A stretch of DNA of 32,518 nt from Stutzerimonas nosocomialis. Its GTDB lineage: Bacteria; Pseudomonadota; Gammaproteobacteria; Pseudomonadales; Pseudomonadaceae. Within the stretch, counting starts at the first letter, position 1. Each line of letters begins with the position of its first letter. Below the pieces are notes generated by a model, which did no database searches, was not told where the DNA came from, and saw only the letters and a program-made list of their open reading frames with translations. This document shows positions 16,692 through 32,518 of this stretch, one piece after another. The stretch spans positions 1-32,518 of the forward strand of contig NZ_QLAE01000043.1 in NCBI RefSeq assembly GCF_005876855.1. The letters run 5' to 3'. Position numbers and translations under genes: made by a program.

Positions 16692-19600
16692 ATGACCGAC
16701 GCAACGCCCCATTTCGACACCCTGCACCAGAATCTCGACCAGGCCTTCAGCGCCGACCGCCATCGTCTGCGCCGGCAGCTGCACGAGTTGAGGAAGCGGC
16801 CGGACGAGGCCAGGCTGGCGCAATGGGTCGAGCGCTTCCAGGCTTCGGTCGCCAAGGTCGAGGCGCGCCGCAACAGTGTTCCCGCTGTCCGCTATGACGA
16901 TGCGCTGCCGATCGCGGCCAAGCGCGACGAGATCAAGGTCGCGCTTTCGAAGCACCAGGTCCTGGTGATCGCCGGCGAGACCGGCTCGGGCAAGACCACC
17001 CAGTTGCCCAAGATCTGCCTGGAGATCGGGCGCGGCGTGCATGGGCTGATCGGCCATACCCAGCCACGGCGTCTGGCCGCGCGCAGCGTCGCCACCCGCG
17101 TTGCCGAAGAGCTCGGTGTGCCGCTGGGCGAGGGCGTGGGCTATCAGGTGCGCTTCGAGGATCAGAGCACCGACCAGACCCTGGTCAAGCTGATGACCGA
17201 CGGCATCCTGCTGGCCGAGACGCAGCATGACCGCTTCCTTGAAAAGTACGACACCCTCATCGTCGACGAAGCCCACGAGCGTTCGCTCAATATCGACTTC
17301 CTGCTGGGTTTTCTGAAGACCCTGCTGCCGCGCCGGCCGGACCTGAAGGTCATCATCACGTCGGCGACCATCGACCTGGAGCGCTTTTCCAGGCACTTCG
17401 ACGGGGCGCCGATCATCGAGGTATCCGGCCGCACCTACCCGGTGGACACCTGGTATCGCCCGCTGGCCGCCGAGACCGACGAGGACGGCGAGCGGCTGGA
17501 GGACGACCTGACCGTCGACCAGGGCATCCTCGCCGCGCTGGACGAGATCGCCGCGCACGAGAAGAGCGTCGGCCAGCGCCCCGGCGACGTGCTGGTGTTC
17601 CTGCCCGGCGAGCGCGAGATCCGCGACGCGGCGGAAATGCTGCGCAAGGCCAACCTGAAGTTCACCGAGGTGCTGCCGTTGTATGCGCGCCTGACCCCGG
17701 CCGAGCAGCAGAAGATCTTCCAGCCGCGGCCTGGCCGCAAGATCGTGCTGGCCACCAACGTGGCGGAAACCTCGCTGACGGTGCCCGGCATCCGCTACGT
17801 GATCGACTCGGGCACCGCCCGTATCAGCCGTTACAGCTACCGCGCCAAGGTGCAGCGCCTGCCGATCGAGGCGGTGTCCCAGGCCAGCGCCAACCAGCGC
17901 AAGGGGCGCTGCGGCCGGGTCGAGCCCGGCATCTGCATCCGCCTGTACAGCGAGGAGGATTTCCTCGGACGGCCCGAATTCACCGACCCCGAAATCCTGC
18001 GTACCAACCTCGCCGCGGTCATCCTGCAGATGCTGCACCTGCGGCTGGGCGACATTCAGGACTTCCCGTTCATCGAGCCGCCGGATGGCAAGGCCATCAG
18101 CGATGGATTCAACCTTTTGCAGGAACTCTCGGCGGTCAACCGCGAGAACCAGCTGACCCCGCTGGGTCGCCAGCTGGCGCGCCTGCCGATCGACCCGCGG
18201 CTGGGCCGCATGCTGCTCGAAGCGGCGAAGCTCGGCAGCACGGCCGAGGTGCTGATCGTCGCCAGCGCGCTGTCGGTGCAGGACGTGCGCGAACGCCCGG
18301 CCGATCGCCAGACCCAGGCCGACCAGGCCCACGCCCAGTGGAAGGACCCGGACTCGGATTTCGCCGCGCTGATCAACCTCTGGCGCGGCTTCGAGGAGCA
18401 GCGCCAGGCGCTGGGTTCCAACGCGCTGCGCAGCTGGTGCCGGAAGAATTTCCTCAACTATCTGCGTCTTCGCGAATGGCGCGATGCCCACCGTCAGCTG
18501 CTGCTGATCGTGCGCGAGCTCAAGCTCGATGGCCAACCCCGAGGTTCCGACCGCGAACAGGGGGCGGCTGGAGGGAAAGATCGCGCTCAGGACCGCTCCC
18601 ACAAAGGCGCCGCCGATCACCGTGGGAGCGGTCTCGACCGCGAAGGGGCGGGCGTCGCAGCGAAGGCGGGCGTCCCGGAGCAGAATCGCAGGGTGGAAGA
18701 CGGCGAAGCCTCTTCCACGCGTGCGGCCGAGGCGGGGTCTCAGCCTGTCCCAACCAAGGACAACAAAGTCAACGCCATCGTCCGCCAGCAGGCCGAAGCC
18801 AGCGAGGCCGCGCAGAAGGCCAAGGGCTACGCCGCCGTGCACAAGGCGATCCTCGCCGGTCTGCTCAGCCACATCGGCCAGAAGACCGAGGAGGGCGACT
18901 ACCTGGGCGCCCGGCAGCGTCGCTTCTGGATTCACCCCTCGAGCGTCATCGGGCGCAAGAAACCCAACTGGATCATGGCCGCCGAGCTGGTCGAGACCAC
19001 CAAGCTGTTCGCCCGCATGGTGGCGAAGATCGAGCCGGACTGGATCGAGCCGCTGGCCGGGCATCTGGTCAAGAAGAACCACTTCGAGCCGCACTGGGAA
19101 AAGAAGCGCGGCCAGGTGGTCGCCTACGAACAGGTGACGCTCTACGGGCTGATCGTCGTGCGCCGCCGGCCGGTGCACTACGGCCCGATCGACCCGGCCG
19201 CGGCGCGCGAGCTGTTCATCCGCGAGGGGCTGGTGCGCGGCGAGATCAACAGCCGTGCCCGGGCGCTGGCGGCCAACCGCGAGCTGCTCGAGCGCATGGA
19301 CGAGCTGGAGGCCAAGGCGCGCCGCCGCGACATCCTCGCCGACGAGGAAACCCTGTTCGGCTACTACGACGCGCGCCTGCCCGCCGACGTCTACCAGGCG
19401 GCCAGCTTCGAGAACTGGTACAAGCGCGAAAGCCAGAAAGACCCGCGGCTGCTGGTCATGGGCGAAGAGGACGTGCTGGCCCGCGAGGCGCGTGAGGTCA
19501 CCGCCTCGCAATACCCGGACAGCCTGCGTATCGGCGAGCTGTCGCTGCCGCTGGACTACCACTTCGAGCCCAACCATCCGCGCGACGGCGTGACGCTGCG

Positions 19601-20879
19601 CGTGCCGGCGCCGCTGCTGCCACAACTGCGTCCCGAGCGTCTCGACTGGCTGGTTCCGGGTCTGATCGAAGCCAAGGCGATCGCGCTGGTGCGCGGCCTG
19701 CCCAAGGCGATTCGCAAGAGCTTCGTGCCGGTGCCCGATTTCGTCGGCGCAGCGCTTTCGAAGATCACCTTCGGCGAGGGCTCGCTGCCCGAAGCGCTGG
19801 GGCGCGAGCTGCTGCGCATGACCGGCGCACGCGTGCCGGACGAGGCCTGGGGCGAAGCGGCCGCCGGGCTCGAAAACCACCTGAAGATGAACATCGAAGT
19901 GGTCGATGCGCAGGGCAAGTTCCTCGGCGAAGGCCGTGACCTGGCCGAGCTGACGGCGCGCTTCAACGAAGCCAGCCAGGCGGCGTTGACGGCGCCACGG
20001 CAGAAAGCCGAACAGAAGCCGGTCGAGGCCAGGGGCTTCTCCCAGGTGGCGGAAAAGGCCCAGCAGAAGGTCGCGGGGCTGTCGATGACGGTCTACCCGG
20101 CGCTGGTGGAAGAGGGCGGTGTGGTCAAGGAGGGTCGCTTCCCGACCCAGGCCGAAGCCGACTTCCAGCACCGCCGTGCGCTGCAGCGGCTGCTGCTGCA
20201 ACAACTGGCCGAGCCCGCCAGGTTCCTGCGCAACAAACTGCCGGGCCTCACCGAGCTGGGCCTGCTGTACCGCGACCTGGGCAAGGTCGATGCGCTGGTC
20301 GAGGACATCCTCCTGGCCAGCCTGGACAGCTGCATCCTCGACGGCGAAGCCCAGCTGCCGCGCGACGGCGCCGCCCTGGCCTCGCTGGCCGAGAAGAAAC
20401 GAGGCGACTGGACGGCCCACGCCGAGCGCCTGGCGCGCCTCGTGCTGGATATCCTCAAGCTCTGGCACGGCCTGCAGAAGCGCTTCAAGGGCCGGATCGA
20501 CCTGGCCCAGGCGGTGGCACTCAACGACATCAAGGCGCAACTGGCCAACCTGGTCTATCCCGGCTTCGTGCGCGAAACGCCGGCCGACTGGCTGAAGGAA
20601 TACCCGCGCTACCTCAAGGCGGTGGAACAGCGCTTCGACAAGATCGCCGCCCAGCTGCAACGCGACCGCGTCTGGTCGGGCGAGCTGGCCGGCTACTGGG
20701 AGCAGTACCAGGCGCGCCTGAAGAAGCACCAGCAGGAAGGCAAGCGTGACCCGGAGCTGGCGCTGTACCGCTGGATGCTGGAGGAATACCGCGTATCGCT
20801 GTGGGCCCAGCAACTGGGAACGAAGATGGCGGTGTCCGACAAACGCCTGAACAAGCAGTGGGCGCAGGTGGAGGCCTGA
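16692..20879 (+). CDS. hrpA: ATP-dependent RNA helicase HrpA (DEAH family) with an atypical internal insert
   Basis: A 1395-residue DEAH-box helicase: Walker A GETGSGKT (95-102), DEAH (192-195), SAT (224-226), TNVAETSLT (355-363) and QRKGRCGR (402-409), then the helicase-associated domain and the long HrpA C-terminal region. HrpA unwinds RNA and is linked to mRNA handling and rescue of stalled ribosomes. E. coli HrpA has about 1300 residues; the extra length here is mostly residues 616-712, a low-complexity Arg/Gly/Asp/Ala-rich stretch between RELKLDGQ and AAVHKAILAGLLSHIG. It is encoded by REP-like DNA (18580-18646) kept in frame. ATG 16692 gives a start typical of the family. A weak hairpin follows the stop. 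Confidence 0.95.
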   Translation: MTDATPHFDTLHQNLDQAFSADRHRLRRQLHELRKRPDEARLAQWVERFQASVAKVEARRNSVPAVRYDDALPIAAKRDEIKVALSKHQVLVIAGETGSGKTTQLPKICLEIGRGVHGLIGHTQPRRLAARSVATRVAEELGVPLGEGVGYQVRFEDQSTDQTLVKLMTDGILLAETQHDRFLEKYDTLIVDEAHERSLNIDFLLGFLKTLLPRRPDLKVIITSATIDLERFSRHFDGAPIIEVSGRTYPVDTWYRPLAAETDEDGERLEDDLTVDQGILAALDEIAAHEKSVGQRPGDVLVFLPGEREIRDAAEMLRKANLKFTEVLPLYARLTPAEQQKIFQPRPGRKIVLATNVAETSLTVPGIRYVIDSGTARISRYSYRAKVQRLPIEAVSQASANQRKGRCGRVEPGICIRLYSEEDFLGRPEFTDPEILRTNLAAVILQMLHLRLGDIQDFPFIEPPDGKAISDGFNLLQELSAVNRENQLTPLGRQLARLPIDPRLGRMLLEAAKLGSTAEVLIVASALSVQDVRERPADRQTQADQAHAQWKDPDSDFAALINLWRGFEEQRQALGSNALRSWCRKNFLNYLRLREWRDAHRQLLLIVRELKLDGQPRGSDREQGAAGGKDRAQDRSHKGAADHRGSGLDREGAGVAAKAGVPEQNRRVEDGEASSTRAAEAGSQPVPTKDNKVNAIVRQQAEASEAAQKAKGYAAVHKAILAGLLSHIGQKTEEGDYLGARQRRFWIHPSSVIGRKKPNWIMAAELVETTKLFARMVAKIEPDWIEPLAGHLVKKNHFEPHWEKKRGQVVAYEQVTLYGLIVVRRRPVHYGPIDPAAARELFIREGLVRGEINSRARALAANRELLERMDELEAKARRRDILADEETLFGYYDARLPADVYQAASFENWYKRESQKDPRLLVMGEEDVLAREAREVTASQYPDSLRIGELSLPLDYHFEPNHPRDGVTLRVPAPLLPQLRPERLDWLVPGLIEAKAIALVRGLPKAIRKSFVPVPDFVGAALSKITFGEGSLPEALGRELLRMTGARVPDEAWGEAAAGLENHLKMNIEVVDAQGKFLGEGRDLAELTARFNEASQAALTAPRQKAEQKPVEARGFSQVAEKAQQKVAGLSMTVYPALVEEGGVVKEGRFPTQAEADFQHRRALQRLLLQQLAEPARFLRNKLPGLTELGLLYRDLGKVDALVEDILLASLDSCILDGEAQLPRDGAALASLAEKKRGDWTAHAERLARLVLDILKLWHGLQKRFKGRIDLAQAVALNDIKAQLANLVYPGFVRETPADWLKEYPRYLKAVEQRFDKIAAQLQRDRVWSGELAGYWEQYQARLKKHQQEGKRDPELALYRWMLEEYRVSLWAQQLGTKMAVSDKRLNKQWAQVEA
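18580..18646. repeat. Inverted REP-like pair inside the hrpA coding sequence
   Basis: Two copies of a pseudomonad-type unit face each other. Unit A (18580-18603) reads ATCGCGCTCAGGACCGCTCC then CACA. Unit B (about 18622-18646) is its opposite orientation, GTGGGAGCGGTCTCGACCGC then GAAGG. The arms GACCGCTCCCAC (18591-18602) and GTGGGAGCGGTC (18622-18633) are perfect complements, and unit B holds GCGGTC-TC-GACCGC. The same core occurs at 32397-32416 in non-coding DNA. A further fragment, GACCGCGAA, lies at 18548-18556. Confidence 0.75.
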
Positions 20880-32109: not shown

Positions 32110-32518
32110 GCACATCCTCTTCTGACGGGCAAAAGCGAGCCGGCATGGCTGCGCCTGTGACAAGAGAGTCGTTTTGCCCGGCGACGTTCGCCGCAGGGGC
32201 TCGGGGCAGGCAGACAAACCGGACCCATCGATAGCCTAAGGGTGACGCCATTCGTGGTCGAGGCCGCTGCCGCATAGGCGCGGTTGCTTGAATGGGAGCG
32301 GTCGGAGACGCCTGGTCCCGATCGCTACGTCTGGCCTGCCCGAAGCCCGTCACGCCGGTCGCGCCGGGCCATGCGGCCATTTGGGTTGCGGTGAGGCCAT
32401 TCGCGGTCAAGACCGCCCCCTCGGGTTCGTGGACGGCACTGTGGGAGTGGACCGTTCCCATGGGTTCGTGGATGGCGTGTGGGAGCGGGGATGAGTGGGA
32501 ACGGGCGCGGTGTGGAGG
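32110..32518. repeat. Non-coding region with REP-like and short direct repeats
   Basis: No gene is supported in these 409 nt. CCATTCGTGGTCGAGGCCGC (32248-32267) recurs as CCATTCGCGGTCAAGACCGC (32397-32416) with three changes; the latter holds GCGGTC-AA-GACCGC. A direct repeat begins GGGTTCGTGGA at 32423 and again at 32462 (about 28 nt, period 39) and ends in GTGGGAGTGG or GTGGGAGCGG. GGGAGCGGTC also occurs near 32295. These units share their core with the pair inside hrpA. The promoter of the DUF445 gene must lie in the left part. Confidence 0.65.

Follow-up and report, generated by a model that had tools for sequence, protein, structure and literature searches.

REPs of the GTAG/CGTC type have been described inside many genes that encode known proteins, where they are read in frame and are often dimeric (Di Nocera et al. 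2013, PMC3733652). The same work suggested flexible linkers and loops as neutral REP sites, noted that the recB genes of two Xanthomonas species are hit by different REPs in roughly one position, named RNA helicases among the REP-bearing genes of Opitutus terrae, and lists GTGG as a known variant of the GTAG head. hrpA is unnamed in the main text of that paper, whose gene list is in the supplement. As with the REPs described there, those that we find in the linker of hrpA lie in frame and, in the window (the whole stretch of 32,518 nucleotides of Stutzerimonas nosocomialis DNA that was analysed), include a dimer. Yet while the genes in that account were mostly hit at different sites, hrpA presents one site that is reoccupied across the Pseudomonadaceae and in a second family.

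Two further kinds of element invite comparison. REPINs are inverted REP doublets that make one hairpin (Bertels and Rainey 2011, PMC3116915); they are called extragenic in that paper, in which 14 of 1,067 invariant REP 16-mers of P. fluorescens SBW25 overlap genes. The pair in our window shares the REPIN form (an inverted doublet, a single hairpin) but is intragenic, and no intact RAYT of its family, here called family A, was found in this genome. Rickettsia palindromic elements (RPEs) are palindromes inserted in frame and translated, and end in CGTC (PMC3733652); within a single genus they occupy many different genes, whereas in hrpA the head reads GTRG and several families have made use of one linker. 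In-frame REPs are therefore already known, and what appears to be new is the hrpA linker as a repeatedly occupied site, given that we found no earlier report of REPs in hrpA in the literature searched (most subscription journals lie outside its coverage). Repeats of this kind being otherwise mostly intergenic, the hrpA hinge is an unusually good place for watching repeat DNA turn into protein.

The hrpA linker of the window and its repeats

The features of the window to which we refer are the following.

16692..20879, plus strand: hrpA, encoding the DEAH-box RNA helicase HrpA (TIGR01967, NF008348, Pfam; open frame from TTG 16659)
18528..18824, plus strand: HA2-OB linker, 99 codons, an insert relative to E. 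coli (alignment of 81 HrpA and alignment with E. coli)
18579..18602, minus strand: family A REP in reverse orientation (GTGGGAGCGGTCCTGAGCGCGATC on the minus strand)
18622..18645, plus strand: family A REP in forward orientation (GTGGGAGCGGTCTCGACCGCGAAG), in a head-to-head pair with 18579..18602
18688..18719, plus strand: decayed family B REP (GCAGGGTGGAAGACGGCGAAGCCTCTTCCACG)
32241..32267, strand not given: diverged REP-like unit, non-coding, a direct repeat with 32390-32416 (85%)
32292..32303, plus strand: diverged family A head with one mismatch, non-coding (ATGGGAGCGGTC at 32292)
32390..32416, strand not given: diverged REP-like unit, non-coding, resembling the tail half of a REP

The product of hrpA scores 1988 bits against TIGR01967 (DEAH_box_HrpA), above the equivalog cut-off of 722.75, and 1554 bits against NF008348, and it is matched by the Pfam families HA2, OB_NTP_bind and DUF3418. 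The gene starts at ATG 16692 and has its stop at 20879; the longest listed open frame begins at TTG 16659, and in the numbering of that frame HA2_C occupies residues 512-571 and the OB fold residues 727-802. By alignment, 7 residues (611-617) separate the two aligned blocks in E. coli HrpA, against 99 in the HrpA of the window. This agrees with a first-pass annotation made from the sequence alone, which had placed an in-frame insert at 18537-18828 (residues 616-712, counted from ATG 16692) and had held that E. coli HrpA lacks a comparable linker. An AlphaFold2 model of the region around the linker (with 28 relatives) gave a mean pLDDT of 42 and a pTM of 0.23 and was discarded as too weak overall; its lowest values fell in the linker, within a model that was weak throughout. 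We infer that the HA2-OB linker is disordered. Rfam at gathering thresholds yielded no match in the linker. Elsewhere in the window it recognised the small RNA PhrS (RF01673; 1124-1329, plus strand, 164.7 bits) and the Pseudomonas sRNA P18 (RF01671; 3433-3567, plus strand, 61.9 bits, barely above the gathering score of 60).

The forward family A copy consists of a GTGG head, then a stem and a GCGA end, as in REPs of the GTAG-type superfamily, in which an unpaired GTAG-like (GTRG) head precedes a stem of 5-13 bp closed by a short loop, and shares a 26-nt exact match with an intergenic copy (L095); in the reverse copy the stem is mismatched, and by itself this copy folds weakly (-4.9 kcal/mol). 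Together, the two form inverted arms of 22 nt (18581-18602 and 18622-18643) that are 86% complementary and spaced 19 nt apart, with an inner core (18591-18602 and 18622-18633) of 12 bp without mismatches, and the facing pair with 12-bp perfectly complementary arms that had been noticed in the linker DNA was thus re-found. The pair makes one long hairpin from two inverted REPs, as a REPIN does: for RNA 18578-18648 the folding energy is -39.4 kcal/mol, against a shuffle mean of -26.2 (z -4.68; 0 of 200 shuffles equal). Further downstream, and overlooked in the earlier reading, lies the decayed family B REP, which resembles GTAGGGTGGAAGACGGCGAAGCCTCTTCCACG of three relatives (L002, L005, L006) and whose surroundings (18686-18724) fold at z -3.56. 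These local hairpins were used in place of the fold of the whole 292-nt stretch, which was set aside as evidence (z -1.54, 9 of 200 shuffles equal). In being inserted in frame inside a protein gene the linker repeats are like RPEs, but a GTGG head in place of the CGTC end led us to reject that assignment.

Seed matches with at most two mismatches number 12 in the window, where the chance mean is 7.1 and 4 of 100 shuffles reach 12; because this is barely above chance, the case for the seed is carried by its count in the genome. The 12-base family A seed GTGGGAGCGGTC has 34 copies in the 4.76-Mb genome, compared with 2 for a control (the seed reversed, uncomplemented), and the 24-nt unit is thus not rare there, in line with the first-pass annotation. 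Gene calls came from a simple codon-based gene finder made for this analysis; by these, 32 of the 34 seeds lie outside predicted genes and the other two are both in hrpA, so that family A is multicopy and mainly intergenic, as expected of a REP. The related units reported at 32.2-32.5 kb are present, but they are diverged, the nearest head being ATGGGAGCGGTC, with one mismatch, at 32292.

The family B seed GTAGGGTGGA has 76 genome copies (control 4), of which 69 lie between genes, 5 across gene ends and 2 inside genes. At five places (L121, L137, L139, L144 and L145) a family B repeat overlaps the predicted end of a gene by about 4 bases, the stop codon seemingly being supplied by the repeat. 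Of the 10-mer family B seeds, the two that lie within genes (L135, L157) showed no REP stem by eye. RAYT matches in this genome comprise one copy with an internal TAG (on contig C6) and, on contig C31, one partial and one split, and no intact RAYT was seen among them. The C31 pieces (G000:C31:33280-34396; L151, L263) lie between family B REP heads in a REPtron-like layout; no family A or B heads were seen within the 3.4 kb surrounding the C6 copy. Among these RAYT matches, none was found beside family A heads.

Linkers of relatives and of a second family

HrpA is present in each of the 198 Pseudomonadaceae genomes that were drawn. The comparison uses the best 80 among 579 confirmed relatives, each of which carries the label Pseudomonas, Stutzerimonas or Azotobacter; with the window they give 81 hrpA whose linkers range from 17 to 99 aa. 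Exact A (GTRGGAGC) or B heads occur in 57 of these 81 linkers, and the 13,932 nt of linker contain 90 heads, compared with 3 for the other 326,979 nt of the open frames; these three look like chance, since two are in ordinary coding DNA and the third lies upstream of the match. Three linkers (L007, L008, L010) are identical, and when distinct linkers are counted once the figures become 55 of 79 linkers and 88 heads. Once the patterns are relaxed and a third family, C, is included, the positives rise to 61 of the same 81 linkers (the window and the best 80 of 579). Under a strict definition, family A REPs number 58 in linkers and 1 elsewhere in the frames (L042, on the upstream border of its open frame), 25 in 128,420 nt of flanking intergenic DNA, and none in the 435 predicted flank genes (351,576 nt). 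Bare 8-mer heads do occur in flank genes (10 of 98 flank hits), but none meets the strict definition and several are one conserved site, and they were treated as chance.

The REP families differ from species to species, and an A pair and a B repeat are stacked in the same linker in the window, L004 and L017. The first-pass annotation had proposed that a REP-type doublet, kin to multicopy non-coding repeats, landed in frame at the HA2/OB junction; this stands, except that it is not a single event of one genome, since heads are present in 57 of the 81 linkers and belong to at least two families besides the third. The same alignment of 81 HrpA bears out its expectation that relatives would not have one shared linker of conserved sequence. 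In L058, and also in L050 and L079, the REPs are themselves broken by additional in-frame inserts.

We added 100 further linkers from genomes with listed places in other genera, several small-genome genera lying outside the sample, and the combined set comprises 181 rows (some duplicating named genomes) and 154 distinct linkers. Of the latter, 83 carry A, B or C repeats and 71 do not, and ten have 7 aa. At the other extreme, L172 (G019:C14:37950-39000) has a 240-aa linker that apparently consists of tandem copies of a family B cluster with the frame kept.

Sampling of the class covered 184 genomes, 109 of which had an OB-region match; from these, 40 linkers were taken, half of them chosen for long frames. 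We parsed 37 of the 40 (21 by pattern and 16 by eye, leaving 3 unparsed), and 33 of the 37 were short. One of the long ones, L271, contains a 27-bp inverted repeat. In the family to which it belongs (f11; our guess is Xanthomonadaceae), 60 of 60 genomes were matched, and 27 of the 30 loci listed were parsed. Among these 27 linkers, five have inverted repeats of at least 12 bp (27, 18, 17, 13 and a borderline 12 bp) where codon shuffling leads one to expect 0.38, and the loci contain 8 such repeats in 79,231 nt outside the linkers. Palindromes other than those of the Pseudomonadaceae, with arms of 13-27 bp, thus sit at the HA2-OB linker in 4 of the 27 parsed f11 linkers, and three of the linker repeats are multicopy in their own genomes (11, 6 and 10 copies with the hrpA ones counted; none for the controls). 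In another linker, L327 (G416), the peptides NPPLKKGGRGDL and NPPFSKGEE hint by eye at a further palindromic repeat, the longest exact inverted repeat found there being only 9 bp.

Reading frame, turnover and the origin of the linker repeats

We consider it likely that HrpA has a permissive spot in its HA2-OB linker, at which small palindromic repeats have come to land time and again. Repeats would arrive by the usual REP route, either through copying by a RAYT-type single-strand transposase or through recombination among copies. Insertions elsewhere in HrpA, or with a stop or a hydrophobic stretch in frame, would be lost, and those in the linker would survive because it may act as a surface tether of free length. 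Once opened, the linker would take more repeats, which could explain both the stacked families and lengths that run from 7 to 240 aa. The HrpA of the window probably gains a charged tether in this way, at close to neutral effect. No insertion event was seen among these linkers, and no target-site signature was found.

Use of the reading frame is close to uniform in the 154 distinct linkers: one frame is used by 45 of 45 forward and 33 of 34 reverse A copies, by 26 of 26 forward and 15 of 15 reverse B copies, and by 4 of 4 forward and 8 of 8 reverse C copies, although these counts span related sequences and hence are not independent events or trials. The single exception is a reverse A copy (L042) read in a different frame. 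Such uniformity argues that the repeat is translated. Stops account for part of it, given that forward A and forward B each have one closed frame; for reverse A, none of the three frames is closed in the subtypes typed. As a rule, the repeat is read in the most hydrophilic of its open frames, with the exception of the GGCC subtype on the forward strand, and this argument rests on the other subtypes, the family C consensus having been out of register. Most likely, the frames have been filtered by selection at the linker.

Occupancy of the linker changes many times on the HrpA tree. This is a quick tree of 81 rows, built with the linker excluded, on which 24 of 78 inner branches are weak and gain and loss are indistinguishable; it requires at least 22 changes for family A, 13 for family B and 2 for family C, while the four oriented heads need 20, 24, 12 and 7, and the stem type of family A changes 18 times. 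L007 differs in its linker from L006 and L009 despite 88-99% identity in 150-nt windows on either side, and the linkers of L072 and L077, both from metagenome bins, are unlike between flanks that are 96-100% identical. Such changes might, alternatively, be mostly replacement and loss and not new transposition, if a few old insertions (or one) opened the linker and resident REPs then overwrote its content by gene conversion or recombination. We regard this as possible though doubtful. The uniform frames would fit it, as would pairs at similar places of the linker in many species, yet the families sit at different spots and stack, the order within pairs is not constant (reverse then forward A in the window and L004, forward then reverse in L013 and L022), and the second family has unrelated palindromes. 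Overwriting also accords with the finding of linker subtypes among the resident REPs of the three genomes for which places were listed, where the linker subtype is the main resident type (L020), is among two main types (L022) or is the minor of two (L045). The search for resident types covered six genomes, with counts only for L004 and L043; that of L037, whose linker REP has a loop outside the search pattern, gave no resident-type match.

That the same linker has been struck by several unrelated repeat families could also mean that a transposase, or a single-stranded state of the DNA, draws repeats to it, with tolerance playing a minor part, but one common target sequence for unrelated families is improbable, and we think this explanation unlikely. 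REP starts in 11 genomes with 7-aa linkers number 226 to 839 in five, 7 to 71 in four and none in two, and the first five thus have abundant REPs without one in the linker, which also speaks against a preferred target. REP supply alone is therefore insufficient to fill the linker.

Retention of the RNA hairpin for a function, such as ribosome slowing or control of hrpA mRNA, is in our judgement improbable. The hairpin of the window pair (-39.4 kcal/mol) might suggest it, and in 45% of 77 REP-bearing linkers folding lies at z < -2 against synonymous shuffles; however, only 18% of 60 linkers of 100-320 nt without a recognised REP do so, which indicates that structure follows the repeat. Median z is -1.69 in the former and -1.2 in the latter, both leaning negative, perhaps as an effect of the codon model. 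Stems are, moreover, broken in many relatives, and 7-aa linkers exist, including in REP-rich relatives. With less excess structure where REPs are lacking and such short linkers in REP-rich relatives, the initial suggestion that the hairpin could slow translation or be processed within the mRNA is not supported.

REPs near stop codons affect ribosome stalling. A more specific and quite speculative version, to which we give very little credence, is that a hairpin in the hrpA frame could pause or collide ribosomes and that HrpA would thereby act on its own mRNA, repeats being recruited repeatedly and any palindrome serving. HrpA rescues collided ribosomes in E. coli (PMC13159725, citing Campbell et al. 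2025). Were such a brake real, ample HrpA would clear ribosomes ahead of the synthesis of the OB and C-terminal domains, and scarce HrpA would let them pass.

The hrpA linkers offer natural replicates for asking how repeat DNA is turned into protein, a question for which the usual evidence is the isolated case. At this one position in a conserved enzyme the repeats vary across many species, and near relatives have a linker that is empty or of another kind, which allows direct comparison of insertion, of the choice of frame, of decay and of the consequences for the enzyme. A further caution is that HrpA linkers are unusable as phylogenetic or domain signals.

Chance palindromes of GC-rich, low-complexity coding DNA, which the low complexity and variability of the linkers might bring to mind, are hardly credible and already refuted by the counts, as inverted repeats of at least 12 bp occur in 20 of the 81 linkers of the Pseudomonadaceae set (the window and the best 80 of 579) where codon shuffling gives 0.2, and exact copies of the repeats exist genome-wide. 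The other 326,979 nt of the same frames contain 11 inverted repeats of this length, six of which are one shared site.
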